Virus record (IMG/VR): IMGVR_UViG_3300047457_001340
Span: 1-61,708 of that record
Direction: 5' to 3' (one strand)
DNA length: 61,708 nt
From: a virus
Made by a program: the position numbers and the translations under genes. Of this stretch, positions 4,790-44,083 are shown piece after piece. How positions within the stretch are numbered: the stretch's first letter is position 1; each line of letters starts with the position of its first letter. The notes under the pieces are model-generated. The model saw only the letters and a program-made list of their open reading frames with translations, searched no databases and had not been told where the DNA came from.

Positions 4790-4791
4790 AA

Positions 4792-5215: not shown

Positions 5216-6934
5216 CTATCTCTTTTTAATAATCTGAGCGGCCTTGCGTTTGATATCAATGATGAAAGCTTCCCTGCTCTCATCATCCCACTTCTTGTCG
5301 AAGGAGAGTTTTAAACTCTTTTTTACCGAATCAAATTTCATCTGTGGTTTTGGGAGGCCTGTGTAGCAATCGCAAAAGATTTCGCCACTGCCACAATCTT
5401 GACAGTCACCTTGCTCCTCATCCATACTCTTAGCTAGGTCTCTGGATGAGATTGATACTTGGGCGCTTTTTTTGATCTCATTGAACTGTGGCAGCTGTTT
5501 AATCTTGCCAGACTTCAATGATTCGAGGGCGTGGTTTTTTAATGACTCAAGTTCCTCATTGAGATCTGAGTAGTCAATGTGTTCAGACAATCTGTTTTTG
5601 AGGTCCTTGATTTTGACGCCCAGTTCTTTTCTTTGCTTGCCTGCCTCTACTAAGTCATCTTTATGGGATGGGGACTCAAGCACATTGATAAGCCGTTTGT
5701 GCTCATTGGTAAACTCTTTCTCGTCCATTTTAATGGATTTACCCATAAATTCCTTAACCTTCCCGTGCTTGATGAAGTGCTCGGTGTCTGCTGAGACATT
5801 AGAGAAATCATCGCCACTTTCCCATCCGTCATGATGAACCATGAAAGATGTGTGGGGGTCGTAAATAGAGTCTTTAATCATGTTGCGAAGAGTTTTATTG
5901 GCGGGATGCTTGGGGTTGTTTAAAACACTCTCTGCCGCAGCAACCTCGTTACCGCCCGCAGATCCTACTTTGATATACCCTCTTTTCAATGCTTCAAATT
6001 CGTCACCCTCTTTATTGGCGATCCAGTCTTCATGGTATTCATTTGGCTTAAGGCGATTAAACTTTCCATCAGGAGAAATCCATCCATGGAAAGAGTCATT
6101 GCCTGAGCCATAGGTGTGCTTTTTGATGTCGTTTGTGGGCTTCAGCTGCTGAAGCGTTACTCTCATTGCTTCGGGAGGGGTGCCGTGAACATATACCATT
6201 TTGGTTTTGTGCTTATTTGCTTCATCAATGGCTTCGTTCAATTCTGCGTTGGTGGGGGAATGAAGATGCTTGCCGATCATGTGGACATGATCTTCGTGAG
6301 TGGCATGAAAAACATGAACACCCTTCATGGTGCCATAGTAGTGGGGATGTCTGTCGTCTGAGCGCTCCAGTGGCTCCGGGTTCACTGCAAGCTGAAACTT
6401 ATGGCCTGAGGGAAGGAGAGTGAAGTGGTTGTCGTAGTGGCCTCCGTGGGAAACGCCTACACCCGGCTCACTCTTTCTACCATCTCCAAACACAAAATGA
6501 TTTGTGAGATATGACGAATGAAGGACGGATGTTTGGTTATATTTGTTTCCAAGGGCTTCAAGCTTTTTCTTGTTCTCTTCAGAGCCGTCATGGGGCACCA
6601 TGTAGCCCTTTTCTTCGGTGTCATATTTGCCGTGAGTCTCAACTGGCTTCAGTCCATGGGCAATAATATCTTGTTTCAGCTGTCGATGAGCCTCTTCGTT
6701 GTGCTCTCCACCAGTCTTTTGCGCAGAAAGGCAGGTGAAATGGTCTGGTAAAACAAGATCTCCTTTGGGCTTCACTTCTCCCGACAGGTGCTTGTGATAG
6801 TGGTCTGGGAGTGGCCAGTGGTCGAGACCTTTAGGTGCGCCCGACTTATCCCAATAGTCGCTTACAGCTTTTGTTTTGGGATCAAAGTCTGGTGTTATAG
6901 TGGATTTGGACAGGGTCTTGTGTTCTTTGGCCAT
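5216..6934 (-). CDS. Modular protein with one GWISPDG domain
   Basis: About 572 residues. Residues 70-190 (LSAQKTGGEHNEEA, HGKYDTEEKGYMVP, YNQTSVLHSS) resemble the spacing of DUF3293-like phage proteins, a tentative link. Around 285-400 lies FHGWISPDGKF, LKPNEYHEDWI, GYIKVGSAGG and NPKHPANKTLR, clearly homologous to two domains in the 986-residue protein. A predicted coiled coil follows, then a small cysteine cluster (CQDCGSGEIFCDC) near the C-terminus that could bind zinc. Start: ATG with GGTGG upstream, preferred over a GTG eight codons earlier. Probably a virion component, judged only from its neighbours. Confidence 0.65.
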   Translation of the reverse strand: MAKEHKTLSKSTITPDFDPKTKAVSDYWDKSGAPKGLDHWPLPDHYHKHLSGEVKPKGDLVLPDHFTCLSAQKTGGEHNEEAHRQLKQDIIAHGLKPVETHGKYDTEEKGYMVPHDGSEENKKKLEALGNKYNQTSVLHSSYLTNHFVFGDGRKSEPGVGVSHGGHYDNHFTLLPSGHKFQLAVNPEPLERSDDRHPHYYGTMKGVHVFHATHEDHVHMIGKHLHSPTNAELNEAIDEANKHKTKMVYVHGTPPEAMRVTLQQLKPTNDIKKHTYGSGNDSFHGWISPDGKFNRLKPNEYHEDWIANKEGDEFEALKRGYIKVGSAGGNEVAAAESVLNNPKHPANKTLRNMIKDSIYDPHTSFMVHHDGWESGDDFSNVSADTEHFIKHGKVKEFMGKSIKMDEKEFTNEHKRLINVLESPSHKDDLVEAGKQRKELGVKIKDLKNRLSEHIDYSDLNEELESLKNHALESLKSGKIKQLPQFNEIKKSAQVSISSRDLAKSMDEEQGDCQDCGSGEIFCDCYTGLPKPQMKFDSVKKSLKLSFDKKWDDESREAFIIDIKRKAAQIIKKR

Positions 6935-6981
6935 AAGGTAATTATCCACCGAAAACACTAGAATTGACTTATGGTTACGCC

Positions 6982-7794
6982 TTAAACAGAGCCATCTTTA
7001 GGCTCTGGTCTGTCGGAAGGACCCACCTTGTCGTAGGGGTCGTGTGGAATGAAGTCCTTTCGAACAACTGCCAACTGAGGGAAGCGCTGTTGAATAGAAT
7101 TTCCATCTTTATCAAGGGTTTGCGTAGCCCTAATCTGATGGGGCAGGCCTATGACGGTGAAAACTGGTCTGGTGTAATAGTTGACCGAATAGATAATCCC
7201 ATTACCTGTGACAGGGTCATATCCGGGCCTTTCTCCAACCCACTCTAAGTACCCTTTTTCATTAATAATTACATCGACCCCAACCCGATACTGGACGCCA
7301 TAGGCATCCATAATGAAGTCAATACTTTTAGCTGGAAAGTGGAGCTTGTCGATTCCTGTCTGACTATGCTCTACAAGCTGATAGTAGCGAACCGTGTAGT
7401 CTGGCACCAAGATCTGATCAAAAAACTGAACATCAAGCTCCGTACCGTCATCGTAGGTAGAGGGAAGGACAATCGTGGCCTGATCGATGTCATAAGAACC
7501 ATTCATCACGAATTGGCGCTGATTACTATTGCCCTGAAAGGCTCCAATAAAAGCCCGCTCGCCGTAGTAGATAAAGCCGTTGTGGCAATCGGTACATCCG
7601 GGATCATGGTCCCCATCATGAATACTTAAGCGCCTCGGACATGGCACAGGTCTTGAATGCACCATGCGAATGCCCTTACTTTTAATCAGCTCATTGAAGG
7701 AATCTGGGTTCATTCCTGCCTGAGGCTGGCCACTGGGCTGCTGACCAAGGAGCTTGGATGGGAGCTTAATGTTTGGAATTTTTGGCTGCGACAT
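6982..7794 (-). CDS. Putative virion neck/tail-completion protein
   Basis: 270 residues with a Pro/Gln-rich N-terminus, then VPCPRRL and PGCTDCHNGFIYYGE (possible CxxC zinc site), followed by a beta-rich body with many Tyr, Val and Ile. The C-terminus is polar and disordered. The gene overlaps the end of the muramidase gene by 29 nt and sits between that gene and the 572-residue modular protein. Its place downstream of the head-tail connector is typical for a neck or tail-completion protein, but no family motif is visible. Confidence 0.55.
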   Translation of the reverse strand: MSQPKIPNIKLPSKLLGQQPSGQPQAGMNPDSFNELIKSKGIRMVHSRPVPCPRRLSIHDGDHDPGCTDCHNGFIYYGERAFIGAFQGNSNQRQFVMNGSYDIDQATIVLPSTYDDGTELDVQFFDQILVPDYTVRYYQLVEHSQTGIDKLHFPAKSIDFIMDAYGVQYRVGVDVIINEKGYLEWVGERPGYDPVTGNGIIYSVNYYTRPVFTVIGLPHQIRATQTLDKDGNSIQQRFPQLAVVRKDFIPHDPYDKVGPSDRPEPKDGSV

Positions 7795-8263
7795 TTCTCA
7801 TGGCCTTCAGGTGCTTATCGAACCTTTTAACATAGTTGTGGTTGACTATTTCTGTTTCAGAAACCTTATTCACTTTATTTGGTCCAAATAACCAGCTATA
7901 AGCAGCTCTCTTGGGTCCAAACTTCTTTCTCAGAGTGCTCCAGTAGTACATCGCAATCTCCCTATCCATCTTTCGATTATGATTGAGGAGCTTTGTGATG
8001 GCCGAATTAGAGAGAGGTAGGATGTTTCCGTACTTCTTTCTTAGGTCCTTTGATCTTAGAACCAAGTCTCTGGCAGTGATTGGCATCAGACCATACCACC
8101 CACCAGCCCTAGTTCCCTTGTGCATCCCACCCTCAATCACTCTATGATTCAGGAAGATACCGCCCTTAGTTTCAACAAGGGCAATTGAGTTCAATTCGTT
8201 GTCAAATGATGCGAAAGCTAGTTGCGAAAAAAATAATGTTAAAACAATACAAGCATTAGTCAT
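7766..8263 (-). CDS. Secreted lytic transglycosylase-like muramidase
   Basis: 165 residues beginning with a Sec signal peptide (hydrophobic residues 4-17 ending AFA), so the product should reach the periplasm. The mature part has the goose-lysozyme/SLT layout: catalytic Glu in IALVETKGG, the GLMPIT segment, a helical lobe, then AAYSWLFG. The same domain occurs inside the 986-residue protein (ASIESSDG, GLMPIT, AYAWRNG), so these are paralogues in one genome. The likely substrate is peptidoglycan glycan strands, in host lysis or entry. The start ATG overlaps the upstream stop as ATGA. Confidence 0.75.
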   Translation of the reverse strand: MTNACIVLTLFFSQLAFASFDNELNSIALVETKGGIFLNHRVIEGGMHKGTRAGGWYGLMPITARDLVLRSKDLRKKYGNILPLSNSAITKLLNHNRKMDREIAMYYWSTLRKKFGPKRAAYSWLFGPNKVNKVSETEIVNHNYVKRFDKHLKAMRNVAAKNSKH

Positions 8264-10365: not shown

Positions 10366-11047
10366 ACCTATATTGTACTAGCAAACCCTTAGGGCCATAA
10401 TTGGCCTTAAGCCAATTTTCGGCCTCTTTACAAGTAGATGTGGGGTGCTCTTGGAAGTAGCGGATGGCAACTCCACCCATTCGGGCTGCGCTGAATGAGG
10501 TGCCTCCTGCATCTTTGGGCGACCTTTCTAGGTAGGTGTCGCCAGCGTTGGCTATGGGGTCCTTGTTGCCCTTAATGGTTGTAGATACAGAGACAAGGCA
10601 GGGCAGGTCATACTTGGCTGGGAATCCGGGCTCGTCTAGGCCCTCATTTCCAGCTGCCACCACCACGAGTATGCCGCTGGAGGTGGCTCTTTTGATTGCA
10701 GAAAACTCAGCAATATCGGGTTTTTGTCCATTAAGGGAGAGGGATATAACTTTGGGTTTTTTGTCAGTAGCCTCTTCAATTGCCTTGGGAAGGTCCGAGA
10801 TATTATGCCAAATAACTTGCTCAGCCCTCACTGGCTTGACATCCTCAATGCTGAGTTGGTCATCGAGGGATTGGGCGACCTGTGTCCCATGGACATTCCA
10901 GCAGGCCTCTGGCCTATTGATGGGCATGTTCAAATAGCCAGTGTGTGACTTGGTGTTTCCCGTATCAACCTGAATGATTTCTATACCGTCAGCTAGGGCT
11001 GAGGTAGATAAAGACAGTGCTATTATGTATTTGACCCAATTGCTCAT
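10205..11047 (-). CDS. Secreted subtilisin-like serine protease
   Basis: 280 residues. A signal peptide (IIALSLSTSALA) is followed by a minimal S8 peptidase: Asp in IEIIQVDTGN, His in WNVHGTQVAQ, oxyanion Asn in VVAAGNEGLD and nucleophile Ser in GGTSFSAARMGG. The core closes near QYRYGRF, after which about 50 Pro/Gln/Ser-rich residues overlap the connector gene in another frame. The presence of all catalytic elements and a signal peptide implies an active periplasmic or surface protease. ATG chosen; a TTG two codons earlier exists. A TACAAT element sits 5 nt upstream and there is no Shine-Dalgarno. Confidence 0.85.
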   Translation of the reverse strand: MSNWVKYIIALSLSTSALADGIEIIQVDTGNTKSHTGYLNMPINRPEACWNVHGTQVAQSLDDQLSIEDVKPVRAEQVIWHNISDLPKAIEEATDKKPKVISLSLNGQKPDIAEFSAIKRATSSGILVVVAAGNEGLDEPGFPAKYDLPCLVSVSTTIKGNKDPIANAGDTYLERSPKDAGGTSFSAARMGGVAIRYFQEHPTSTCKEAENWLKANYGPKGLLVQYRYGRFKGQPSDWAANTPKPRQWRPQLHKSGTASEPKEVQEEVSVWSAAQGSNDR

Positions 11048-11059
11048 GTACAATTGTAC
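11048..11059 (-). promoter_or_regulatory. Palindromic TACAAT start-site element
   Basis: A perfect 12-bp palindrome, GTACAATTGTAC, directly abuts the ATG of the subtilase gene. It contains TACAAT ending 5 nt before the start codon, so it could be both -10 element and operator. No ribosome-binding site separates it from the ATG, consistent with a leaderless transcript. Confidence 0.45.
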
Positions 11060-15369: not shown

Positions 15370-15789
15370 TTAGGGATTAAAGAACCTGTTGCCAGACCTT
15401 GGGGCAAAGATTTGAAAATGCACCCAGTTGGGCGTAGCACTAAAGCTCTCGCACCAAAGGCCCGCCTGCTCAAGTGTGGACACATTCGCCAAACACCAAG
15501 CCTGAAGCTCTTGGTTGGGGTCGGAGATATCCAAAGCCGCACCCTTTAAGTGCTGCGATTTCATAGGCACCTTAGATTCATCGAATGGGACTCCAGCCTT
15601 CTCAGCTTTTTCCCTATAGATTCTCAGGTGATCGGCCATGGTTCTCAGACCTGAAGTCACGGTCATTGGCTTGCCGTAGGCCTCCCTGATCTTATTCACC
15701 TTGGCAATGAGGATTGCTAGGTTTGCCCTCACATCCTCGGGCTGATCTTCAAGCTTTGCGCCTTTTAAAACTTCCTTGAGGGTAATCAT
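15370..15789 (-). CDS. M15-type murein peptidase (endolysin candidate)
   Basis: 139 residues with the zinc-binding layout of the peptidase M15/VanY family: TVTSGLRTMADHLRIY, then SQHLKGAALDIS (SxHxxGxAxD) and WVHFQIF with the second metal His. Such enzymes cut D-Ala-containing peptide bonds in peptidoglycan. No signal peptide, so export would depend on the holin, as for a classic endolysin. ATG overlaps the end of the 986-residue gene by 4 nt. Best endolysin candidate of the window. Confidence 0.85.
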   Translation of the reverse strand: MITLKEVLKGAKLEDQPEDVRANLAILIAKVNKIREAYGKPMTVTSGLRTMADHLRIYREKAEKAGVPFDESKVPMKSQHLKGAALDISDPNQELQAWCLANVSTLEQAGLWCESFSATPNWVHFQIFAPRSGNRFFNP

Positions 15790-18746
15790 TGTTTAAACTT
15801 TCCGTGTTTAGCAAAGTGATCAACACTCACCCCCACATGAGACTCGGATGGAGTATGGGTGTCGCCATAGTGGTAGATGTCGCCGTTCATAGTTTGACCG
15901 GGATAAGCATCGCCAAAAATCTGACGAAGCTTCAGGGTGGCTGGGTGCCTCTTATTTGCGATAATGGGGTGAGCAGCGCTAAAGCTTGCGTCTCCGCCGT
16001 GGCCAACAGCAATCCAGCCAGAGTCAAGAGCCGCTGTGGCATTCTCTCCGGTTTTTTCGGCAATCCAATCCATGTGAGACTCATTGGGCTTCATTGGGTG
16101 AAAGTCACCCTCTGGAGATACCCAACCGTGAAGCTTTCCAGATTTACCATCGAAGATGTGCTTATTAAGCTTATTAGTAATTTCTTGAGCCTTTTTTAGC
16201 TTAGATGGGATGCTCTCATCAAACCAGTCTGCCGGGTTTTCTTTAGGAGCTTCTTTCTTGCCGCCCTCAATCACTTTGATTTGTGATTGAACCTTTTTGT
16301 CAGCTTTCTTCTGCTGAAGGCGCTTTAATTGAGCCTCACCCTCTTCTTGGGAAATCTCCACGCCCGTATCTGGGTTATGCCAATTATTGTCGGCAAAACG
16401 CTCCAGCTGAGATTGGGTCATGTTCTTGTGGGGAGACTTGACCTTTTCAAGCTCCTCGCTCTTGTTCATTTGTCCGCTGAGCTTGTTAAACTTCTGAACA
16501 TAGGGGTGGGAGTCGATCTGTTCTTGGGTCGCATTCTTGGCGGCTGTAATGCCATTGCGCCAAGCGTAGGCCATTCTAGGCTTATCGCCACCAAACACAT
16601 GATGTAGCCTGTCCCAGTGGTGATTAGCTATGTCCGCCTCGATGCTGGGGTTATTATTGAGGTGTTGCGTGATCTGGTCACTGGACATGGAAAGGATGTT
16701 TGAGTGTCTCTCCATGAGCTTTGGGTTTTTCTTAATAGCCTCTTTCACCGTAATGGGCATAAGTCCAGTAGAGCCTGCTGCTGTATCTCCAGCATTCAGG
16801 CCTACGGTCGTCTTCTGATGCTTCTTATTTTTTCCGTCAGACGACTCAATAGAGGCAATGTGCCTGAGACTGCCTTTTAGCTCTACCTTGGGGGACACAC
16901 GGGCGGGAACCACGCCTGCACTGGGTGAGGTTGGGGTGGCCATGGCGGTGGCAGATAAGATGGCTAGACCCGCTGCAGCATCCTTCAATGCCCCCTTATC
17001 TAGCTCACTCTTGTCTATATTGGCACTCTTGATCTTGCCGTATTTGGCAAATGTATTGGTGTCGGCTTCATGGAATTGCCAATTATCACCCTGCTCCGGC
17101 TTAATAGTGACACCAAAGGTGGGGCCCCAATGTTTGTGAGCAAGCTCCCTCAGCTTTAGGGTTGCTGGGTGCCTTCTGTTGCCAATAACAGCGTGGTGGC
17201 CAGAAGCCTCTTCCATTCCGGCATGGCCAACCGATATCCACCCCTGATCATAAGCATCCGAAATGGAGCTGATACCATGGCCATTGCGTATAACATCCAA
17301 ATGGTCCTCATGGGGCTGCATGTGGATGTAATCGCCTTCCGGCGTAATCCACCCATGAACCTTGGCGGGAGTGCCTAAGTGGTAATCAACTTTGTCTAGC
17401 GATTCGGGTTTGACCGCCTGCCTTCTGGCAAGCTCCGTCTTTTTATGCTCTATCTCTTTGGGGTCCACGAAATATGAGCGCGGCGGTTTTGAATACTCTT
17501 CAATCTGATCGGCCAACATGGTGGTTGGAGTAGAGGCTGTGTAATCTTTAATTCCATGTTTCTCATATAGGTTTCTAAGATGTATTTTAAGGTCCTGATT
17601 ATCAAATAAATCCAGAGTAGATGAGGCGCGGCTTCTTTTAGCAAATCCGCCCATATCCATGATTTTGAGTTCGCCCTTTGCATTTCTTCCTAATTGAATG
17701 TTATCAATGGGTTTATGCCCGGCAACAAATGCATCATGAAGGCTTTCTCTGACATGAGCAAGCTCGTGCTCGTTTAATTCTCCGTCTTTAATGGGGGTGA
17801 GAGATTCTCTAGCCAGATAAAGCTTATCCCCTTTTCTCCAAGTCCCGTGATGTTTGGGAGTGAGGGGATTTCCTGCCATGCCGGTGATGGCATCGTGCTC
17901 ACTCATGATGTCTCCGCGAGCTTCAGCCGGGGTTTTCTTGGGATTAAACTTGTTATATGGGGTAGTTTTGGAAACCTTTACAACTACATCTGGGGTGGCC
18001 TGATAAACATGGCCCTGATGTCCACTTCCTAAGTATTTCCAATCGTGAGTCTGAAATAATGGAGTTCCCCAATCAGCGCCTTTCTCAAGCTCTTCGGACT
18101 TGCCGAATTTGCGGTTGGGCTGGTTCCAGAAAGCCTCGCCATCTGGCTCCTGTATATCAGAGCGGATTATCTTTAACCCGCTTTTCTTCTCGGCTAACAC
18201 ATACATAGCCGATCCAAGCCCCTTCCGTTGATGCTCTTCGTCTACCCACACGGAGAAATTGCCAGTACCATCTATGGGGTGTAGCGCAGAGCCCTTTTCT
18301 CTAAAAAGAGCCTCTCCGACCTCATTGCCATTTGAGTCATGGGCTGATAGGCTGTGTATTTTCTTTCCTTCTCCTGAATCATCCTTCCAAGAGCGGTAGT
18401 AAATTTTATACCCCTCCTTCTTCCAATCCCCATTCTTGCCCTTGTCGAGGTCCTCGGCCTTATTCAAAAGGCCTGAGGCCTTCATGGACTCAACGACTTG
18501 GTCCATCACCTCTTTGGTAGGCTCAGCTCCCATAGCCTGCATGACAGCCTTAAAGCGGTCAGCCTTATTTGGAATCTGAGAGACCTGCTGAACCAGCTCA
18601 GGTGGGAGCTTCTCTGCTTTAGGGTCTAAGATCTGAACTAGGGCTGAGACCTGAGAAAACGTAGCGGGGTCCTCAAGGTCCGATTCCTTGAGGTTTGCGG
18701 CTAGGTTTATAAGCAGTTCTACAAGCTCGTTTTGGGGGATGGGCAT
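15786..18746 (-). CDS. Polyvalent protein: GNAT, kinase-like, muramidase and two GWxxPEG domains
   Basis: About 986 residues from the ATG (a TTG six codons earlier is possible). In order: helical region 1-100; GNAT acetyltransferase-like region about 115-215 with VWVDEEHQRKGLGSAM; kinase-like domain about 235-390 with GSGHQGHVYQA loop, VVVKVSK, an EHDAI helix, NIQLGRNAKG and IMDMGGFAK in place of HRD and DFG; GWITPEG domain about 460-575; hydrophobic Ala-rich stretch; SLT-like muramidase about 626-760 (ASIESSDG, GLMPIT, AYAWRNG); coiled linker; GWVSPEG domain at the C-terminus. Modules are joined by KSEELEK-type linkers. Likely packaged in the particle and released in the host, by analogy to other giant polyvalent phage proteins. 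Confidence 0.75.
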   Translation of the reverse strand: MPIPQNELVELLINLAANLKESDLEDPATFSQVSALVQILDPKAEKLPPELVQQVSQIPNKADRFKAVMQAMGAEPTKEVMDQVVESMKASGLLNKAEDLDKGKNGDWKKEGYKIYYRSWKDDSGEGKKIHSLSAHDSNGNEVGEALFREKGSALHPIDGTGNFSVWVDEEHQRKGLGSAMYVLAEKKSGLKIIRSDIQEPDGEAFWNQPNRKFGKSEELEKGADWGTPLFQTHDWKYLGSGHQGHVYQATPDVVVKVSKTTPYNKFNPKKTPAEARGDIMSEHDAITGMAGNPLTPKHHGTWRKGDKLYLARESLTPIKDGELNEHELAHVRESLHDAFVAGHKPIDNIQLGRNAKGELKIMDMGGFAKRSRASSTLDLFDNQDLKIHLRNLYEKHGIKDYTASTPTTMLADQIEEYSKPPRSYFVDPKEIEHKKTELARRQAVKPESLDKVDYHLGTPAKVHGWITPEGDYIHMQPHEDHLDVIRNGHGISSISDAYDQGWISVGHAGMEEASGHHAVIGNRRHPATLKLRELAHKHWGPTFGVTIKPEQGDNWQFHEADTNTFAKYGKIKSANIDKSELDKGALKDAAAGLAILSATAMATPTSPSAGVVPARVSPKVELKGSLRHIASIESSDGKNKKHQKTTVGLNAGDTAAGSTGLMPITVKEAIKKNPKLMERHSNILSMSSDQITQHLNNNPSIEADIANHHWDRLHHVFGGDKPRMAYAWRNGITAAKNATQEQIDSHPYVQKFNKLSGQMNKSEELEKVKSPHKNMTQSQLERFADNNWHNPDTGVEISQEEGEAQLKRLQQKKADKKVQSQIKVIEGGKKEAPKENPADWFDESIPSKLKKAQEITNKLNKHIFDGKSGKLHGWVSPEGDFHPMKPNESHMDWIAEKTGENATAALDSGWIAVGHGGDASFSAAHPIIANKRHPATLKLRQIFGDAYPGQTMNGDIYHYGDTHTPSESHVGVSVDHFAKHGKFKQ

Positions 18747-18769
18747 GTCCCTATTATCCCCCAAAAACC

Positions 18770-23075: not shown

Positions 23076-25661
23076 TTAACCCGAAGCCTGAGCAGGCTCC
23101 TCCTCCTTATCGTCTACCCGGCCTGCTGGACCCATCTCAAGATCTGAGAGTTCCATCTGCTGTGGCTCTCCACGGGGGCCGGGAAACTGTGTATAAACAA
23201 TACAACGATTGTAGTCGGTGACACATTCAACAGCCACTGGACAGCGGCCATTTCGCACCTTGTCTAACAAGAAGACGATTCTGTTTTTCTTGGCATCATC
23301 CTCGGAGCGGTTAATCGTGATGACATTGGAGGCCTTCCTGACAATCCCAAAGCTTTCAGCCACATCGGACATCCTGAGGTAGTCGGTGCCTTTTTTAGAG
23401 AGCTGGTGTCCAAGACGGTTCACTTGAGCCCCACCAGCACCTGCCACATTCAGCTCTAAACAAAGCTGCTTCAGCTCTGAATAGACAAACTCTTGAAGGA
23501 GTCGGGTGTTGTCGAGGGACTTGAATCTTGAGGTGGTCAAGCATTGGCCGTAATCACACAAGAAAAGCTCGAAGGGCCACTCTTTATGGAGCATTCTAGC
23601 CGCCTGCTGCACCTGCTCCACGGTAGCTTCGTGGCTGTACATGTACCTGATCTTAACGTTCTCTTTTAGAAGCTCGTCGGCAATCTTTAGGGCTTCCTTC
23701 TCGTCTTGATTGAGCAGGGTGTATGGGGCCATAAGCTTGGTGAAGGGGACGCCGCTGAAGCGGGATAGGAACCTCAGTTTGGTGGGAAGCTCTTCGTCCT
23801 CATGGACGGTTAGAAACACCTTTTTGCCTGCATTGACTGCAAAGTAGGCCAGATTGGGCATGAGCATGCTGTTGTGTGTTAAGATACCGTTGGCAACGAA
23901 AAGGTTGTCTCCGTCTACCGATAGGTCAAATGTTTCTTGTTCTCCGACATATTCAATTGAAACAACCTCATCTCTATGAAATGAATCGTCAAAATTAAGC
24001 CCATCAGATTCCGCTGTATTGGCAAGAATCCTCCACAAACCTGAGTTGGGGCGCTTTTTTTGGAGCTTTTTCTTTGTTTCAGATGGCAGCAGGTTAGAGG
24101 CTTCGTCGGAGTAATACACCCACTCCCCACCAAGCTTAGAATTTTCTCTACCCACAGCTTTTTCAAGACGACCGTCGCCCCATTTATCCGTCAAACTAAG
24201 TTCTTTTATAAGCCTTCTTGATGACCTTCCGGTTACAAAGATTGAATATACCCCATAGTTTTCCAATGTTCTGTTTTTAAGTTTGACTGTTTTGTGCGAT
24301 GATTTAACATTGGACACATATCCAAGACGCAATAACACTTGTTGAAGGTATCGAACTTGGTGTTCATAATGAAGCGATAAAACTACAGACGACCCCCTCT
24401 TATCCACTGTTCCATCTGCATCCATAATACCAGCAATATAAGCTGCTGCAGATTCCTTGGACCAAGATAAAACATCAATCAAACATTTGTTTTCTTTGGT
24501 TCCTGTCCTAAGACCAAACGCTTCTAGCTGATCTGCAATAAAAGCATTAGCCCAAATAGACTCGCCATTATCGCCCTTTTTGTGCGTTCTTGGATTGTTG
24601 AGTCCCATATTTCCAAGAACTCTTAATAACTTATTTTTCACCGAACTATCTTTATGAATAGCCCAACTGAGATATCGAGTGTTGAAACTATTTTTAAAGT
24701 AGCTGCCGTCGCCAAAAGTAAATCCCAATAACCAAGCGATGTCATTGGGTATTTTTTTTGTTCCAATCCAGTTATCAATGGGAACAACTACAGGATCTCC
24801 AACGCTAATGTCCCTAAGTTGTTTTTGCTCTATTCCATCTCCGCTATCCAGCGCGTGTATGTGATCAAGTGTTGAATCAATATACAGGCCACTGCTGAGT
24901 GTCATACGGTAAAGTGGTTTAATGCCATTTCTATGAACAGCAAGAATCTTTCTTTTCGCGTTGTAGCCAACAACATAATTATGTTGAGATAGCGTTATAT
25001 CCTTAATTTTAACCAAACCCTTATCAGTAGGGACCAACGAATCCCCGCCTAAGCATTTTCCCGTATTCGACCCCCCAAGAAAAGTGGTCCAAGTCTGCGG
25101 GAAAAGTCCGCCGTTCATGGCGGCATCGATTGCGGCAATGCCCGTTGGGATTGCATTTTGAGCCTGAGCAGAGGCCAAATCGATCATGGAGACATGGTCC
25201 CCGAAGGAGGCGACCTTTTCCTTCTCAAAGTCTACCTTGGAGATGAGGTCGAGGTGTTTCTTGGTGATTTCATAAGCATGCTCCCGGTTGCCTGAGTTGT
25301 AGAGTGGGGCTGCCTCTTTGTAGGCTAAGATAAAGAGGCTTGCTCGAATGAAGCCCGTCAGCTCTTTTTTAAGGTAGTTCTCATCCGGTTCACTCTCTTG
25401 GATCTTCTTAAACTCGGCATAATACTTGGAGGCGTCCGTTGCTCCTTGTTTATTGATCTCGTTGGAGAGTGCCGATCGGGTAGGAAGGCTGTTGTGCTCT
25501 GTGTATAAGTCCTTAAATTTACGAAAGAACCACCGCAGCTCTTGAGAGAAGTAGCCCTCTTCTAAGTAGGCCACGCACCGGGCGGCAAAGCGTTCGTCCT
25601 GTAACATCTGCTTAATAACCTGACGCTGGAAGTCTAGACCAAATTTTTCATTGCCGCTCAT
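23076..25661 (-). CDS. dnaB: Replicative DnaB-type helicase, intein-interrupted
   Basis: 861-residue precursor. Extein: N-terminal helical domain 1-180, then the RecA-like motor with TFLGGSNTGK (Walker A) at 193-202, resuming SMLMPNLAYF at 598, FLCDYGQCL (Walker B), AGAGGAQVN and RKASNVITINR. Removing residues 203-597 leaves 466 residues, the normal DnaB size. It unwinds the phage fork ahead of the phage-encoded primase and DnaE. CCGTATAAC ends 8 nt before the ATG and there is no good Shine-Dalgarno. Divergent from the 199-residue plus-strand gene. Confidence 0.92.
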   Translation of the reverse strand: MSGNEKFGLDFQRQVIKQMLQDERFAARCVAYLEEGYFSQELRWFFRKFKDLYTEHNSLPTRSALSNEINKQGATDASKYYAEFKKIQESEPDENYLKKELTGFIRASLFILAYKEAAPLYNSGNREHAYEITKKHLDLISKVDFEKEKVASFGDHVSMIDLASAQAQNAIPTGIAAIDAAMNGGLFPQTWTTFLGGSNTGKCLGGDSLVPTDKGLVKIKDITLSQHNYVVGYNAKRKILAVHRNGIKPLYRMTLSSGLYIDSTLDHIHALDSGDGIEQKQLRDISVGDPVVVPIDNWIGTKKIPNDIAWLLGFTFGDGSYFKNSFNTRYLSWAIHKDSSVKNKLLRVLGNMGLNNPRTHKKGDNGESIWANAFIADQLEAFGLRTGTKENKCLIDVLSWSKESAAAYIAGIMDADGTVDKRGSSVVLSLHYEHQVRYLQQVLLRLGYVSNVKSSHKTVKLKNRTLENYGVYSIFVTGRSSRRLIKELSLTDKWGDGRLEKAVGRENSKLGGEWVYYSDEASNLLPSETKKKLQKKRPNSGLWRILANTAESDGLNFDDSFHRDEVVSIEYVGEQETFDLSVDGDNLFVANGILTHNSMLMPNLAYFAVNAGKKVFLTVHEDEELPTKLRFLSRFSGVPFTKLMAPYTLLNQDEKEALKIADELLKENVKIRYMYSHEATVEQVQQAARMLHKEWPFELFLCDYGQCLTTSRFKSLDNTRLLQEFVYSELKQLCLELNVAGAGGAQVNRLGHQLSKKGTDYLRMSDVAESFGIVRKASNVITINRSEDDAKKNRIVFLLDKVRNGRCPVAVECVTDYNRCIVYTQFPGPRGEPQQMELSDLEMGPAGRVDDKEEEPAQASG
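23871..25055 (-). mobile_element. LAGLIDADG intein in DnaB at GK^S
   Basis: 395 residues. Splice block A starts with Cys (CLGGDSLVPTDKGLVKIKDI), the N3 block has STLDHIHALD, and the C-terminal block is NLFVANGILTHN followed by Ser. A homing endonuclease is inserted, with the two LAGLIDADG helices AWLLGFTFGDG and YIAGIMDADG, both keeping the acidic residue. It splits the Walker A Lys from Ser, so unspliced helicase cannot bind ATP. The DNA looks visibly more AT-rich than the flanking extein, pointing to separate ancestry. Confidence 0.93.
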
Positions 25662-30897: not shown

Positions 30898-32364
30898 TCA
30901 AGCTTTTCCGATGTTCTGGATGATACCAGATTTACGGGGAGCGAAGATAATTAAGGTGCCCGCGAGCCAAAGCAAAAATTCTTTGCTAGTGCTGACCTGC
31001 GCCAGATTGATCTTCATGAGAGGAGCCAATTGCTTCCACACCATGATCTCAGGACGCATGTCGAGCATGTATGCCGTTGCGCCGCCTTCAACCTTCTCAC
31101 CGCGATCGGTGAAAACGGTCGAAGCGCCTGCAGCCTTGACGTAGCCGACAAACTTCTTGCCTGCGCCGTTCTTGTCAGAGCGGTACACAGCGTAGTGAGT
31201 CGGAGCAGCGCCGCCAGCCGGAGCGGAGATGGTGACCTTGATGTTCTTGCCATCAGCGTCAACCGTCACTTCGGAGGTAGCAGCGGTAGCAGCACACTCG
31301 CCCTGCTCATTAACAGCAGAGACAGAGTAGCTGTACTTTTCGCCAAGCTTCAGCTTGCTGTCGCCATCGGTGGCGAGAGCTGCTGCTGCAGCAGCCGGAG
31401 CCTGAGGAACGCTTGCGCGGTCGTTCTGGGACTTTGGAGCATCTTTTGGCTTCAAGAAGAGGTTCGGGCGGAGGGCGATCGAGCCTGCGGTCGTCACCAT
31501 CTCACGAACAACATAACCAGCTTTTCCATCAGCAATACCGAGGACGTTCACACGCTCCTTCGGGAAGAATTGCTTAATGAAATCGCTCATCTGTTTCGGA
31601 GCGAGGTGGAGCTGGTCAGGGCGTCCGAAATTCTGCATCAAGACGTTTGCGAGGTCTTCGATGGTGCTTTCGGAGATGATATCACCTTCCATGTCCTTGA
31701 TGATGGAGTCAGCGCCGCCGAAACCATCGAATGCACGGGCCTGAGCCGAGAAGTCACTGTCGCCGGAGCGCAGCTGAACTTCTAAACCACTCAGGTTGAG
31801 GTTCTGCATCTTGGAAGGAATTGCAGAGATTTCGCCGTCAAATTTCCCGTTGTTCGAGAAGTCAGCGTTACCTTTGTACAATTCGCGCTCAAGGCGCTCA
31901 AGCATCCACAGAGTTCCAGCTTGAGATTCACGGCTTTCAGCATCACCTGCGAAAGAGCGAACCAAGGTGGAGGCCAACGAGACACCACGGCGGGTGCTCA
32001 GGAAGACCACCTTCTGTGCATGACGATTGTACTCTGAATCGTTCATGGAAGGGCTCCCGGACTCGGGTACAAAGGCGCTGCCTCCGTCTCCGTAGGAGTT
32101 GGTCCTTACATATTGCTCAACCAAGCTGTAAGCGCGATCTTGAGGGATCGAAGGCCACATGATGAGGTTGGAAGCGTCGTAAGTGACAGATTTCAGGGTA
32201 GAATCGAGGGATTCGACCTGAAGAGCAGCACCGCCAACCAGAGAGGTCGGAGCGCCGAGATAACCATGACCTGCTTGAAGAGTTTTTGCCAGCTCTTCAG
32301 CCTGTCCCATATCGAGAGCCTGTGAATTTACAGCTCCCAATTGCGTGTTGAAATCAGAAAACAT
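30898..32364 (-). CDS. Major capsid protein with FN3/Ig-like insert
   Basis: 488 residues. Residues 1-310 and the last 50 fit an HK97-fold capsid protein (ELYKGNADF, FGRPDQLHLAP, YVVREMVTTAGSIALRPN; C-terminal LAPLMKINLAQVSTSKEFLLW). Between about 325 and 425 lies a Pro/Ala linker and a fibronectin-III-like domain (KYSYSVSAVNEQGEC, PTHYAVYRSDKNG) that should project from the capsid surface. AAAGGAG stands 9 nt before the ATG, the strongest ribosome-binding site of the head genes, matching high expression. Scaffold and prohead protease genes precede it. Confidence 0.85.
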   Translation of the reverse strand: MFSDFNTQLGAVNSQALDMGQAEELAKTLQAGHGYLGAPTSLVGGAALQVESLDSTLKSVTYDASNLIMWPSIPQDRAYSLVEQYVRTNSYGDGGSAFVPESGSPSMNDSEYNRHAQKVVFLSTRRGVSLASTLVRSFAGDAESRESQAGTLWMLERLERELYKGNADFSNNGKFDGEISAIPSKMQNLNLSGLEVQLRSGDSDFSAQARAFDGFGGADSIIKDMEGDIISESTIEDLANVLMQNFGRPDQLHLAPKQMSDFIKQFFPKERVNVLGIADGKAGYVVREMVTTAGSIALRPNLFLKPKDAPKSQNDRASVPQAPAAAAAALATDGDSKLKLGEKYSYSVSAVNEQGECAATAATSEVTVDADGKNIKVTISAPAGGAAPTHYAVYRSDKNGAGKKFVGYVKAAGASTVFTDRGEKVEGGATAYMLDMRPEIMVWKQLAPLMKINLAQVSTSKEFLLWLAGTLIIFAPRKSGIIQNIGKA

Positions 32365-32392: not shown

Positions 32393-33106
32393 TTACCCAA
32401 TTAAAGCCTTGATAGTAGCCATGTCCTGTTCGGTAGCACGGTTAGTTTCAAAGCGAGTAATCAGGGCAGTTTCCACTGGCTTCCCCGATTTTTTAAGATT
32501 CAAAAGCTTGTCAATCACTTCAGCCTTATTGAGCGACTGGCCTTCTTCCGACTTGCGGAGAGGGGTTAGGCCAGATACGCCCTTGCGGGGCATCGGTGCA
32601 TTGGCAATCTTTTCGATTTTTTCGTTCAGTGCTGCAACGGTCTTAGAAAGGGATTCAATCGACTCACCGAAGGACTTCTTCAGAGCTTCCACTTCTTCGT
32701 TAGTCTTGATTTCTTCTTTCTTAACTTCTTGAGCCTGTTCAGACTTCAAGAGACCGCGACTTTCCATTTGAGACTTCAAGGCTTCAAATTCGGACTTCAG
32801 AGCGTCATCGCTCATTTCTTCCTCTTCTTCTTCCTTGTCGTCTTCCTTCTTATCCTTCTTTTCGTCTTCTTCTTCAGCAGCTTCTTCAGCAGCAGGCTCA
32901 GCAGCTTCATGAGCGGCTGGTTCTGCAGCTTCGTCTTCCTGAGCTTCTTCAGCTTCGGGAGATGCGGCCAAAGGACGAGAAGGATCTTCAGCGTACTGGA
33001 AGTCGTCCATCTTAGACAACTCTTCGTACTCTCTCAGAGCTTCATCCAGCACCTGTTCGATGCTCTTCAGAAGCTCTTCCTTGCTCTGTTTGGTTTCCTT
33101 AGCCAT
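32393..33106 (-). CDS. Capsid scaffold protein
   Basis: 237 residues, extremely charged: Glu/Ala/Asp-rich residues 45-95 with EEDEKKDKKEDDKEEEEEE, then coiled coils (SIESLSKTVAALNEKIEKI) and a basic C-terminus (KSGKPVETALITRFETNR). Acidic, helical, placed between prohead protease and capsid gene: the classic scaffold position and composition. KSE/KAE segments near 120, 180 and 190 may be cleavage sites for the protease. Confidence 0.7.
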   Translation of the reverse strand: MAKETKQSKEELLKSIEQVLDEALREYEELSKMDDFQYAEDPSRPLAASPEAEEAQEDEAAEPAAHEAAEPAAEEAAEEEDEKKDKKEDDKEEEEEEMSDDALKSEFEALKSQMESRGLLKSEQAQEVKKEEIKTNEEVEALKKSFGESIESLSKTVAALNEKIEKIANAPMPRKGVSGLTPLRKSEEGQSLNKAEVIDKLLNLKKSGKPVETALITRFETNRATEQDMATIKALIG

Positions 33107-33560: not shown

Positions 33561-34304
33561 TCACTCCTTATTTATGCTGCCTTTATGGGCAGCGATTATT
33601 GATTTCAGTTGCTTCAAAAGCTGCGGACTCTTCAGAGTTACAACCTCTTGACTCTCCGACATCTCAGATGCTTTACGGAGCAGCTGGCGAGCAACAATCG
33701 CCAACTTCAAGACTTTCTCAAGCGGGCTCTCATCCGATACTTCAACGAAGTCGGGGACAAGGGCTGTTTCGCTTTTAATTAAATCATTTTCCGCGATGCC
33801 AAGAGACTTGGTGATCTGGGTCACTTCGGTCTTTGTTTCGCGATTGCAGGGGTGAACGGTGAGCGCAATGCCTTTGATTAAAGTGCGCTTCAAATGGCCA
33901 TTTTCTCCACGCTCAAGGGTTTTGCCTTCGACAGACACCTTGATGGGAGCGGCTTCGTTCTTGGATTGATAGAATTTATAGATGGAGGCGATTGCGTCGG
34001 ACTCTTTATGTCCGTGGCCATCCCACAGTTCGGCTTTGCACCAAAGGAATGGCTTCTTTTTTTCGCTCCAGAATTTGAGCTGGGATGGGGTGGTGCAGTC
34101 TTCTGCTTTATAGATCTTTTTAGCAGAAAGGACGCGACCAATGAGGTGAGCAAAATCATTGCGATGATCAGAATTGACATAACCCCTGTTCTCAAGGAGA
34201 GGGGAAATATCAGCGCCATCGAGGTCTAATGTCTCGTTGGTGACATCGCGATCTGGTGTAGACGCAATGCATTCGATGATTGTGCTTTTTCTTAAATGGC
34301 CCAT
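33561..34304 (-). CDS. Prohead protease (HK97/S78-like)
   Basis: 247 residues. NRGYVNSDHRNDFAHLIGRV supplies the conserved His, and IKVSVEGKTLE the nucleophile Ser, at the spacing typical of S78 prohead proteases; EGKTLER and KGIALTVHPCN are the usual following strands. It should cut scaffold and capsid N-termini during maturation. Gene order protease, small protein, scaffold, capsid supports this. Confidence 0.8.
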   Translation of the reverse strand: MGHLRKSTIIECIASTPDRDVTNETLDLDGADISPLLENRGYVNSDHRNDFAHLIGRVLSAKKIYKAEDCTTPSQLKFWSEKKKPFLWCKAELWDGHGHKESDAIASIYKFYQSKNEAAPIKVSVEGKTLERGENGHLKRTLIKGIALTVHPCNRETKTEVTQITKSLGIAENDLIKSETALVPDFVEVSDESPLEKVLKLAIVARQLLRKASEMSESQEVVTLKSPQLLKQLKSIIAAHKGSINKE

Positions 34305-40721: not shown

Positions 40722-42092
40722 CTACAATTTATCTTTGTGAATGGATTCTTTCGAGTAGAGGCGCATTCCAATAGTGGGGTGGTAAGCCCATGTATAGACT
40801 ACTCTATGGTCTTCTGGGACATGGACATCCTCTTCATTTCCATGTCTAATAGCCTTAAAGATCACATAGTCTTGGCCATTGTGGTTTTGAACCTTCATGT
40901 GGACCGTGTTTTTGTTCTGAAACAGGGCTGCCAAATGCCTTGCCCTCGGGAAGTGGGTCTTGCCCGTCTTCCCCTCTTTGGTGGGGATGAGGTGCTTGTT
41001 GGGGTGCTGCTCAATGGCATTAAAGAAGGAATTCACAAGCTGCTGGTGTTCTGGCTTCTGAATGCTGGTGAAGAACTCCTTGCCTTGGGCAATGGCTTTA
41101 TCGTGTTCCTTGGATACCGCCTCATTGTTGCGCCATGCCAATTCTCCCAAATGCCTTGTGGCCACATAGTCGCCCAAGCTGTCTTTGATGTGGGTCGGGG
41201 GACGATTGGCCTTTACGAGCGGCTCAGGAAGCTCCAAAATGGCTTTTCTTAGGCCTGTCTGGTAATGGTATTCGGAGTGGTCCTTCCCTTTGTAGGTCAG
41301 GTTTGACCCATTGAAACCCCAGCCGGGGGTGATTTCATGGAGGATGTGGCGTTCGTTGGGATGTGTCGAATCGATCGTAGGGAGCCAGTCTTTGGCCTTG
41401 CGCCCGATGTTAGAGCCGTTATTCATGAGGTCTGACATCTTGTAAACTTTGGGTGTGATTCCATCGGCTAGAAACCAAAACTTTAAACAGTGCTTGCAGG
41501 TTGCTTCGTCCGATGGGCCTGATTTATAGACGTAGATTTCATCGGGCTGCCTATTGGGGTTAGCCGTAATGATGGCGTCCATCGAGCCCCAGTTGGAAGC
41601 GCGATTCAGCTCTGTGGTGACAATCGTGCGCCAACGATGCTCCCAGTTGTCCACCTTACCTCTGAGGGTAGCGGCTAAGTTCTTGGAATACTTGTTCTTG
41701 TCTTTGAGAACCTCGTAAATCTGCTGGCCTTCTCGTCTGTCAAAGATCGGCATGAGGTGGCTTTCGATCGTGGCCATCATGTCTGTTTTGAGGCTTTCGC
41801 CCGCTTTCTCAGAATAAGCCTGAAACATTCGCTCCAAAAACTTAATAGCACCATCACGGATAGCCTTGGGGGCAGGCCCCGCCGTGGTTCCCACCAATGC
41901 TTTGGCATGGGTTCTAATATAGGCCTCGCTCACCGCAGTCTTGGTGGGGCGTGAAATCATCCCGTTTCTAGCCAAGTCCTGAAGCTCTGCCCTAGAAAGG
42001 GCGTGTGGCCCGATCGACATATATCTCAGGTAGGCAATGAAGCGTTTGATGGCCGCCTCAATAGTATTTCGAGCTTTATTGGACAGTGCCAT
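40722..42092 (-). CDS. Head morphogenesis protein (Mu gpF/SPP1 gp7-like)
   Basis: 456 residues. The family signature is clear in the middle: IVTTELNRASNWGSMDAI, YKSGPSDEATCKHCLKFW (CxxC) and STHPNERHILHEITPGW. Such minor head proteins sit near the portal and help prohead assembly or DNA entry. The C-terminal 150 residues are an extra beta-rich region (HMKVQNHNGQDYVIFK, DHRVVYTWAYHPTIG) not typical of the short family members. TAATG overlap with the portal gene. Confidence 0.85.
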   Translation of the reverse strand: MALSNKARNTIEAAIKRFIAYLRYMSIGPHALSRAELQDLARNGMISRPTKTAVSEAYIRTHAKALVGTTAGPAPKAIRDGAIKFLERMFQAYSEKAGESLKTDMMATIESHLMPIFDRREGQQIYEVLKDKNKYSKNLAATLRGKVDNWEHRWRTIVTTELNRASNWGSMDAIITANPNRQPDEIYVYKSGPSDEATCKHCLKFWFLADGITPKVYKMSDLMNNGSNIGRKAKDWLPTIDSTHPNERHILHEITPGWGFNGSNLTYKGKDHSEYHYQTGLRKAILELPEPLVKANRPPTHIKDSLGDYVATRHLGELAWRNNEAVSKEHDKAIAQGKEFFTSIQKPEHQQLVNSFFNAIEQHPNKHLIPTKEGKTGKTHFPRARHLAALFQNKNTVHMKVQNHNGQDYVIFKAIRHGNEEDVHVPEDHRVVYTWAYHPTIGMRLYSKESIHKDKL

Positions 42093-44083
42093 TACTCGTC
42101 CTTATTGTCTTTGTCTTCCATGTCATCTTTGATGGCTTGGAAAACGTCTTTCAGAAGGAATTTCGATGCCCTATCAAACTCTTTCATCAGATGATCGCGC
42201 ATTTCCTCGACATGATCATCCTGAATGCGCCTCACTGAACCTTCGGCCTTCTGGAGGTCAAGGTTGTGCTGCATAGCTTTAAAGAGCTGTGGGTTCATGG
42301 CAATATACTGCTCGATAGCCTGAGCTTGAGCTTGAGCCTGCTGTTGCATCATCTCCTGCTGGGCTTGGGCATCTTGCTCAGACTGCTCGCCACCTTGCTG
42401 GTCTTGCTGCTGGTCCTCTTCCCCGCCTTCCTGAGGAGGAGCCTCTTCTTGGCCCTGCTGGGCCATAGCCTGCTGCTGCATCATCTGCATCTGAATCTGC
42501 TGCCACTGGAACCACAGCGGATCTGGGACATATTGGAGGTCTGGGCGTTCGCTTGCGCCTTGAATCCCCATAAATAGCTCCATAAACATCCCCTTAGGCA
42601 TGTTTGTCTGGAGGGTCTGAAGGAGAAGTGGGTTCATGATAAGCTCGCCGCCCACTTCAATAGGCTTCTTATCTACTTGTTTTCTGGCCTCATTGATTGT
42701 GGTATGAAGATTGGTCTCGGCCTGAAGGCGTGCGATTTCTTCCTGCTCAGTCTCTGCGTCCATGCCCACAAACTGGAAGTGATACTTTTCAGCAATCTTG
42801 TGTCCAAAGGCATTGGGAAGAATGTCTTCGTTAAGGATAGACTCAATTCGGTTGAGGATGGGCCTTAAACCACGGTCGCGACTTGCGGTGATTTTCCAGC
42901 TATTGCTACTTTCGGAGAGAGCCCTCTGGCCGGGTTCCTTGGAGAGGTGGCCAAAGCCGATCTCTTCTGCGTCAATGCCGAAGGCTGCGCAAATGGTGAG
43001 CAGGATGTGCTGCTGATAGGCTGCAAACTCCATGTCGCGATTGGACATGGTGAGGGGCTGCCACTGGACGCCTTGAATGCCGGAAAGGACTGGGGTGCGC
43101 CATGCATTTTGCGGTCCAGTGGTTTGCTGGGTCCACTGAGCCTGAAGCGCTTTTAGAGTGTTCGGTGGAACATCTCCCTGAATCACCAACACCCCACGGC
43201 TGGCTACACCGTGCGTAAAGAACTGTTTCTGATGGTTTTCTATCTGAAGATGCGTCGTGATGGCCGAGATCGCTCGTTCAAGCGGTCCATAACAATACCC
43301 ATTGAGATCAATGTCAGACTCAAGGTTGTAGCGGCCAAAGATAAGCTCATCGTGAGCGAAGCCTTCCACAACTTTCCCGCCAATGACTTGGACATACTCG
43401 TATTCTCCGTCTTGAATGGATTTAGCAGAAACTTTCTTTTCATCAATCGCATTGCGCCAAATGTCACGGTAATCTTGAATCATTTTGGCATCGACTTTCT
43501 TGTTGGCGTAATAAATGGTCTCAGCTGCCAAGGGAAGAAATGCGTAGAGGTCCTGCCCGACGCTTCTTACCTTTTCAATGGCACAATGACCATACACCAG
43601 CATATCGCGAGTGACGACGTAGCAGAACTGGTCAAACGCCATCTTGTCGTCGTGGGTGCGATTTCCAGTCTTGCCACAATTGAGGATGTACTCCTCGATC
43701 TTTCTCACCTCATCGGCATCGGCTTCGGTCTCATTGTTCTTTGGAGCAATTTTAAAGCCTAGATCAAAACGATTGACAGGCTTCTTGGCGCAGGATGCCA
43801 CTTGATTAGCCCTAACGTCGATGATGGCAGCAACAAAGGGGTCGCGGCGGGAGACTTGCTTGAGAATGGTGGGTGAAAGGTAGGTGCTCTTGGGCTTAAA
43901 GAGGCCACCACCAGCAAAGACCTGTTCGCTAAAGGGGTCAAACAGGAGGCCTTTTCTCGTGATAGAGCCATCTTCTTTGACAGCTTTAGAGAGGTCTTCT
44001 TCGGACTTGCTTAAGTCCTCAATTCTCTTGTCGAGGGAAGCATTAATGTAGTCATAAAACTTGGTAAAGATATTGTCAGCCAT
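42092..44083 (-). CDS. Portal protein
   Basis: 663 residues. LSPTILKQVSRRDPFVAAIIDVRANQ is the usual portal N-terminal clip region; QFCYVVTRDMLVYGHCAIEK and LNGYCYGPLERAISAI (long helix) and FAAYQQHILLTICAAFGID follow the phage portal pattern. Residues about 525-590 are a Gln/Glu low-complexity tract (QQQDQQGGEQSEQ), and the last 70 are a charged coiled coil. It forms the dodecameric DNA channel and docks TerL. ATG overlaps the HNH stop. Confidence 0.88.
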   Translation of the reverse strand: MADNIFTKFYDYINASLDKRIEDLSKSEEDLSKAVKEDGSITRKGLLFDPFSEQVFAGGGLFKPKSTYLSPTILKQVSRRDPFVAAIIDVRANQVASCAKKPVNRFDLGFKIAPKNNETEADADEVRKIEEYILNCGKTGNRTHDDKMAFDQFCYVVTRDMLVYGHCAIEKVRSVGQDLYAFLPLAAETIYYANKKVDAKMIQDYRDIWRNAIDEKKVSAKSIQDGEYEYVQVIGGKVVEGFAHDELIFGRYNLESDIDLNGYCYGPLERAISAITTHLQIENHQKQFFTHGVASRGVLVIQGDVPPNTLKALQAQWTQQTTGPQNAWRTPVLSGIQGVQWQPLTMSNRDMEFAAYQQHILLTICAAFGIDAEEIGFGHLSKEPGQRALSESSNSWKITASRDRGLRPILNRIESILNEDILPNAFGHKIAEKYHFQFVGMDAETEQEEIARLQAETNLHTTINEARKQVDKKPIEVGGELIMNPLLLQTLQTNMPKGMFMELFMGIQGASERPDLQYVPDPLWFQWQQIQMQMMQQQAMAQQGQEEAPPQEGGEEDQQQDQQGGEQSEQDAQAQQEMMQQQAQAQAQAIEQYIAMNPQLFKAMQHNLDLQKAEGSVRRIQDDHVEEMRDHLMKEFDRASKFLLKDVFQAIKDDMEDKDNKDE

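Follow-up and report, generated by a model that had tools for sequence, protein, structure and literature searches.

According to Iyer et al. 2017 (PMC5512222), phage polyvalent proteins join several unrelated enzyme domains in one chain, are encoded among late virion genes and are likely injected; the domains listed there include GNAT, kinase and lysozyme, processing is proposed mainly by built-in zincin peptidases and in a few cases by assemblin-like ones, and some plasmid-borne members travel full length. Internal head proteins cut by a phage head protease are described for the gp245 substrates of SPN3US (PMC10052503), where the cuts remove N-terminal propeptides except for the C-terminal propeptide of the protease itself, and for DarA of P1 (PMC12810830), from which an N-terminal piece is removed. 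Here we analyse a virus record of 61,708 bases (IMGVR_UViG_3300047457_001340; the whole stretch is hereafter called the window) and in it one long gene, whose product, the polyprotein, carries a GNAT acetyltransferase domain, a kinase-like segment of unproven fold, a predicted lytic-transglycosylase-like muramidase and two copies of a domain that we call GW-PEG.

The polyprotein fits the known class of phage polyvalent proteins, with unrelated activities in one chain near the portal and terminase late genes, and by its architecture alone it is a new member of that class. It differs from the polyvalent proteins of Iyer et al. in that its borders are marked by a repeated, head-protease-like motif, hydrophobic-x-Lys-[Ser/Ala]-Glu, and no peptidase domain was matched within its chain. 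The new element is these head-protease-like borders, tied to sites in the scaffold, portal and capsid proteins of the same genomes. We infer that the polyprotein is probably of the ejection type and would be cut at its borders by the phrog_1028 head protease in the prohead, the pieces then being ejected. This resembles the cutting of internal head proteins in SPN3US and P1, whereas the motif of the window is Lys-Ser-Glu between enzyme domains and SPN3US cuts after Glu (PMC10052503). The capsid protein Cps of A511 shares with the window the protease family (phrog_1028), the capsid family (phrog_752) and the K|S start, whereas only a capsid propeptide is concerned there and the hydrophobic residue stands one position nearer to the lysine. 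No report of lysine cleavage in this phage group was found in the literature search, and a head-protease motif at polyvalent domain borders is not stated in the titles or abstracts of the open-licence papers that the search yielded, which by itself leaves novelty unproven.

Linker Peptide and Head Protease

Hydrophobic-x-K-[S/A]-E, which the domain borders carry, is concentrated in the head proteins of this phage group. Side-by-side reading of polyproteins revealed a recurring linker between domains, Lys-Ser-Glu (KSE) followed by -L-x-K. Among 18 head-module proteins of phage Mx1 (head and other proteins were sorted by gene position and annotation throughout), KSE has 17 copies where 2.25 would be expected, the top rank among the 493 tripeptides seen at least four times, and each of its five permutations appears 1-3 times. 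It is absent from 10 Mx1 tail, baseplate and endolysin proteins (0.8 expected) and from 27 Mx1 replication and other proteins (3.1 expected). Twelve GNAT-containing polyvalent open reading frames (ORFs) hold 37 copies (6.4 expected; rank 1 of 1097), and here, as in the Mx1 set, the permutations are unenriched. The 17 head-type proteins of the window contain 13 copies against 3.5 expected, with KES and SKE at five each, and its 25 other proteins contain one against 4.2. A hydrophobic residue stands two positions before the lysine in 77% of 73 sites (background 26%). When six phages other than the window were searched within 20 kb of the capsid gene (75,338 amino acids), [LIVMF]xKSE was found 51 times, and its permutations 4, 6, 4, 2 and 1 times. 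Across seven phages, the genes that immediately precede the capsid gene contain 16 sites (shuffle mean 0.36, maximum 3 in 2000), and 12 of these lie in the five scaffolds that had not been seen when the motif was discovered; the SPO1-type scaffolds of SP8 and EalM132 have 9 and 14 [LIVMF]xK[SA], respectively, against about one expected.

The position of the peptide follows the domains. None of 58 KSE in 25 proteins lies within a GNAT or muramidase core, where about 9.7 would be expected; the GNAT core model was trimmed at FG, which places 14 KSE directly behind it outside by construction, and the other 44 are outside as well. K[SA]E stands directly behind the GNAT core in 15 of 26 copies, and in the corresponding position three GNATs that look stand-alone (L030, L032 and L035) show FG but no KSE. 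The polyprotein of the window has [LIVMF]xK[SA]E at K102, K222, K585 and K768 (four sites against 0.22 in shuffles), none of them inside a domain as drawn (Table 1).

The head maturation protease of the window belongs to the family of the A511 gp84, SP8 and EalM132 proteases (phrog_1028), and itself contains LIKSE (residue 177), beyond the C-terminal end of the family-model match. The capsid proteins of A511 and of the window likewise belong to one family, phrog_752. The N terminus of mature A511 Cps was reportedly sequenced by experiment. In the A511 record (DQ003638, mat_peptide), mature Cps starts at residue 24, after Lys23 (...DALK|SFTTG), and because of this start we prefer K|S to KSE| as the cut position, without regarding the matter as settled. 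Close to the N terminus, most capsid proteins of the group keep hydrophobic-x-K, next A or T and then LxAG, as in the LNK-ALEAG of SP8 and EalM132, with K at residue 23.

The proteases of A511 (L152 43442-44233), SP8 (L136 12407-13165) and EalM132 (L151 6334-7101) also match phrog_752 over about 50 residues; the C-terminal part of the protease and the N terminus of the capsid protein share a segment in these three phages. The putative prohead protease of Mx1 (L009 13002-16721) is 1239 amino acids long and matches phrog_1028 only at its N terminus, its C-terminal part shows a weak PI3/PI4-kinase-like match (E 0.019), and the protein contains a stretch resembling the capsid N terminus.

Several points weigh against cleavage at these peptides. 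Elsewhere in the same six phages (210,452 amino acids), [LIVMF]xKSE still occurs 26 times against 7-17 for the permutations, i.e., also far from the capsid gene; 11 of the 26 GNAT copies lack K[SA]E directly behind the core, and KSE is missing from three muramidase ORFs. KAE, which we weighed as part of the motif, is not generally enriched, making border 1 (LLNK|AED) the weaker one. The sites that follow homologous GNATs are not independent of one another, and the motif was first noticed on part of the data on which it was tested. The A511 scaffold is unenriched (2 against 1.19), and the annotated A511 site, A-L-K|S, has its hydrophobic residue next to the lysine instead of two before it. Finally, cutting after Glu by the SPN3US head protease (PMC10052503) makes KSE| an alternative to K|SE.

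The peptides could instead be head-entry tags that bind scaffold or shell, the polyprotein being packaged and ejected whole. Enrichment in head proteins only is what a targeting tag would produce, and the recurrence of the peptide within scaffolds and portals would suit a binding motif. However, the mature A511 capsid protein is annotated as starting directly after K at K|S, every strong domain border has a site whereas no core contains one, and a single tag would do, yet the borders repeat the motif. We consider tags an unlikely explanation and favour cleavage by the head protease.

Layout and Domains of the Polyprotein

The preliminary description had assigned acetyltransferase, kinase-like and muramidase motifs and two GWxxPEG domains to one protein read from 18746. 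All these motifs lie in a single ORF, 15786-18764 on the minus strand; position 18746 is an ATG seven codons in, and the frame itself opens at a TTG. Residues are counted here from TTG 18764, which places QRKGLGSA at 179-186, GSGHQG at 246-251, VVVKV at 260-264, IMDMGG at 368-373, HGWITPEG at 470-477, IASIES at 636-641, GLMPIT at 667-672 and HGWVSPEG at 879-886. If the chain were cut after K102, K222, K585 and K768, the computed pieces would be 11.2, 13.5, 40.8, 19.6 and 25.0 kDa. No relatives of the N-terminal segment were found among the fetched loci; it is possibly a propeptide or targeting part.

Table 1. Features of the polyprotein gene and of associated genes in the window.
Feature	Residues	Coordinates	Strand	Remarks
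Whole polyprotein ORF		15786..18764	-	992 aa (amino acids) from TTG 18764 (986 aa from ATG 18746); stop included
N-terminal acidic segment	1-102	18459..18764	-	11.2 kDa, isoelectric point 4.5
Border 1, LLNK|AED	100-105	18450..18467	-	Second LDKG at 106-109
GNAT acetyltransferase core	118-221	18102..18413	-	
Border 2, FGK|SE	220-224	18093..18107	-	Followed by LEKG
Kinase-like segment	236-440	17445..18059	-	GSGHQG loop, VVVKV, HKPIDN, IMDMGG; fold unconfirmed
GW-PEG domain copy 1	465-578	17031..17372	-	
Border 3, IDK|SE	583-587	17004..17018	-	Followed by LDKG
Signal-peptide-like hydrophobic stretch	~591-612	16929..16994	-	Directly behind border 3
Muramidase / lytic-transglycosylase-like core	633-759	16488..16868	-	
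Border 4, MNK|SE	766-770	16455..16469	-	
GW-PEG domain copy 2	872-992	15789..16151	-	Confident model, no fold match
Head maturation protease, proposed cutter of borders		33561..34304	-	phrog_1028, E 1.1e-12
Scaffold-like gene adjoining capsid gene		32393..33106	-	Three KSE and NKAE
Portal protein		42092..44083	-	N-terminal LSKSEEDLSK, C-terminal LQKAE
Major capsid protein, SPO1/A511 family		30898..32364	-	N-terminal LAK-TLQAG, counterpart of LNK-ALEAG of SP8
Stand-alone muramidase paralogue		7766..8263	-	Classic signal-peptide-like N terminus
580-aa gene with third GW-PEG copy and SAM-lyase-like domain		5216..6958	-	GW-PEG copy at 5750-6142

The GNAT fold is confirmed by structure prediction. 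Pfam GNAT matches the window protein alone at E 0.0033, under the curated cut-off, but among 34 aligned relatives 30 have a match to Pfam GNAT models; a PDB profile search with a small GNAT alignment gave nothing useful. The model of residues 104-444 reaches a predicted local distance difference test (pLDDT) score of about 90 across most of the GNAT part, with which Foldseek lists almost throughout GNAT-type enzymes, and a second structure aligner has GNAT-type enzymes in all 50 matches listed, the best with Z 8.4 (93 residues, 2.6 A). The acyl-CoA loop of GNAT enzymes has the form [Q/R]xxGx[G/A]; it is present as QRKGLGSA, and R77 and G79 do not vary among 34 relatives.

Scanning viral contigs with a GNAT profile yielded 59 loci, many of whose GNATs belong to long multidomain ORFs. 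Eight of nine multidomain or Mx1 proteins match at least one Pfam family at E<=0.05 and one matches none; NUDIX, polyvalent-type ART and mCpol (minimal CRISPR polymerase) are among the families found beside GNATs. In Mx1, WNM70333 (annotated as NUDIX hydrolase, 1479 amino acids) combines GNAT, ART and NUDIX with the same muramidase. Like the window protein, it is a polyprotein encoded among late genes, its linkers contain KSE and a K site stands ahead of the hydrophobic stretch of the muramidase, but ART and NUDIX domains take the place of the kinase-like and GW domains. In a contig assigned to a planctomycete metagenome-assembled genome (L142 4523-8176), a 1218-amino-acid polyvalent ORF with the same kind of cassettes joins GNAT and muramidase, which may hint at the host of part of the lineage.

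The predicted muramidase is supported by profile comparison and by an invariant Glu. In hhalign, its profile reaches a probability of 68.5 and E 4.6e-5 with five lytic transglycosylases of E. coli, and a GNAT profile used as control reaches 0.1. The catalytic Glu of GH23-type lytic transglycosylases sits in an ES motif, and the Glu of this motif is invariant in 11 of 11 muramidase relatives. Pfam SLT matches five of these 11, the window copy not among them, and a PDB profile search with the muramidase alignment found no lysozyme match. GW rows added to a muramidase alignment came out misaligned.

A hydrophobic, signal-peptide-like stretch precedes the core in 12 of 13 muramidase copies, the exception (L126) being a weak partial match, and the two stand-alone copies begin with ordinary-looking signal peptides. 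All ten embedded muramidases have [LIVMF]xK[SGAN] at most 14 amino acids before the stretch, where 1.1 would be expected, with the residue set [SGAN] picked after the sequences had been seen. The simplest reading is that the embedded muramidase derives from a secreted enzyme, and that a cut restores the signal at a new N terminus; re-export from the cytoplasm, or insertion into the inner membrane during ejection, would thereby become possible, and the events would then follow another order than in the preliminary description.

This arrangement bears on the earlier reading of the protein as an intact genome-entry protein, i.e., a single multi-enzyme chain that would first cut the wall and afterwards act in the cytoplasm. 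That all domains share one frame speaks for such a chain, as do the injection proposed by Iyer et al. and the full-length travel of some plasmid-borne members (PMC5512222); against it stand the border motifs and the export-signal-like stretch, which would work only at a new N terminus. The part of the genome-entry claim that stands is the joining of a wall-cutting domain to a domain of protein-modifying type in the virion cluster. The intact chain is a quite improbable part of it, and separate pieces are the reading that we prefer.

The kinase-like segment is unproven and is assigned at motif level only. Its motifs are present in frame, but the fold claimed for it is not confirmed: in the structure models proposed as a check, which did yield the GNAT fold, most of the segment has pLDDT <50, and only a helix and hairpin around DNIQL...KIMD are fairly confident. 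No relatives of the segment were found in phages (where only the GNAT matched), plasmids, viral contigs or the fetched loci. Kinase-PolyVal (PF18762), a domain on the list for polyvalent proteins though not obligatory for them, has no match in the window at E<=10, a missing profile match being no exclusion. In AGHKPIDN, aligned by eye, His takes the place of the catalytic HRD Asp, five residues ahead of the conserved Asn. PDB matches at E<=10 comprise only two sequences of one Dot/Icm type IV secretion system effector (E 0.34, 29 residues, glycine loop only), which we take to be a Legionella kinase; the match is a lead, no more.

Two GWxxPEG domains are present in the polyprotein as described, and a third copy lies elsewhere in the window, in the gene at 5216-6958. 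A model built from the three paralogous copies has a mean pLDDT of 84. No known family was matched: the viral-contig scan found nothing, the best PDB profile match has E 0.63, Foldseek gave no match at E<=0.001 in PDB and BFVD, and the best Z in VIA was 4.5. We do not claim GW-PEG as a new fold.

Gene Neighbourhood

Records such as the window are often fragment-like, and no end repeats were found in its 61,708 bases. Its capsid gene belongs to the SPO1/Staphylococcus-phage family (533 phage records matched, best identity about 32%). Upstream of the polyprotein gene, on the same strand, are the genes for terminase, portal, head maturation protease and capsid, and more structural genes follow downstream, which gives a late, virion-gene setting; the gene directly downstream is of an endolysin family (phrog_894). 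The scaffold role of 32393..33106 is suggested by its position and by the EalM132 record, which labels the corresponding gene as scaffold-like. The polyprotein might alternatively stay unpackaged as a late protein on the host side, modular in build and serving lysis or superinfection, with its muramidase active when infection ends. This would fit the neighbouring phrog_894 gene and the secreted-looking stand-alone muramidase gene in the window, but GNAT and the other effector domains play no part in lysis, and KSE is absent from the Mx1 tail set, its annotated endolysin included; we regard this reading as very unlikely.

Several further genes on the minus strand are of note. The third GW-PEG copy shares its gene with a SAM-lyase-like domain (PF23780, E 2.4e-6), possibly making it another effector chain, directed against restriction-modification. 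At 3392-4795 lies an mCpol gene (PF18182, E 4.5e-22) whose copy 1 has an intact GGDE motif and is followed by KSE, and whose copy 2 has a degenerate one; an mCpol match also occurs within a GNAT polyvalent ORF (L033), and a nucleotide cyclase is annotated in the head cluster of Mx1. As a speculation, virion-delivered mCpol could keep a Panoptes-type defence (PMC12657230) quiet. Adjoining the mCpol gene is a gene for a 1052-amino-acid protein (241-3399) with LAKAEEEFEK near its C terminus and zero Pfam or PHROG matches. A protease-like ORF (10205-11053; phrog_3677, E 2.6e-16) lies among the structural genes. Three intein/homing-endonuclease insertions were identified, in a DnaB-like helicase (23076-25661), the large terminase (45640-48792) and a Pol III alpha polymerase (54192-58562).

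Discussion

In the mechanism that we propose, the polyprotein would be made from the late virion-gene region and enclosed in the prohead, where the phrog_1028 head maturation protease would cut after the lysine of hydrophobic-x-K-[S/A]-E. The head would then hold separate pieces of about 11, 13.5, 41, 20 and 25 kDa, to be ejected with the DNA; because the border linkers look like head-protease sites, the chain is probably already in pieces when injection starts. Cutting ahead of the muramidase would expose a signal-peptide-like N terminus, which might carry this piece into or across the inner membrane to open the wall, and the GNAT and kinase-like pieces might modify cytoplasmic targets. Virion proteomics with trypsin may have missed such cuts, because trypsin also cuts after lysine and would hide the event.

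Polyvalent proteins pose the puzzle of how wall, nucleotide and protein-modifying enzymes in one chain are packed, threaded through the tail and delivered each to its compartment, and a border motif common to scaffold and portal would be a simple, testable answer. More tentatively, and with somewhat less than even confidence, we suggest that the tailed-phage lineage of the window, Mx1 and their relatives might store its early effectors as polyproteins, i.e., as exchangeable cassettes bounded by a head-protease peptide, such that head maturation would at the same time be effector maturation, and that the cut might unmask a signal peptide and so re-export a wall enzyme from the cytoplasm. The border motif would provide a sequence rule for finding ejected effectors, anti-defence ones included, in this phage group, and could serve to load chosen cargo into the heads of laboratory phages.

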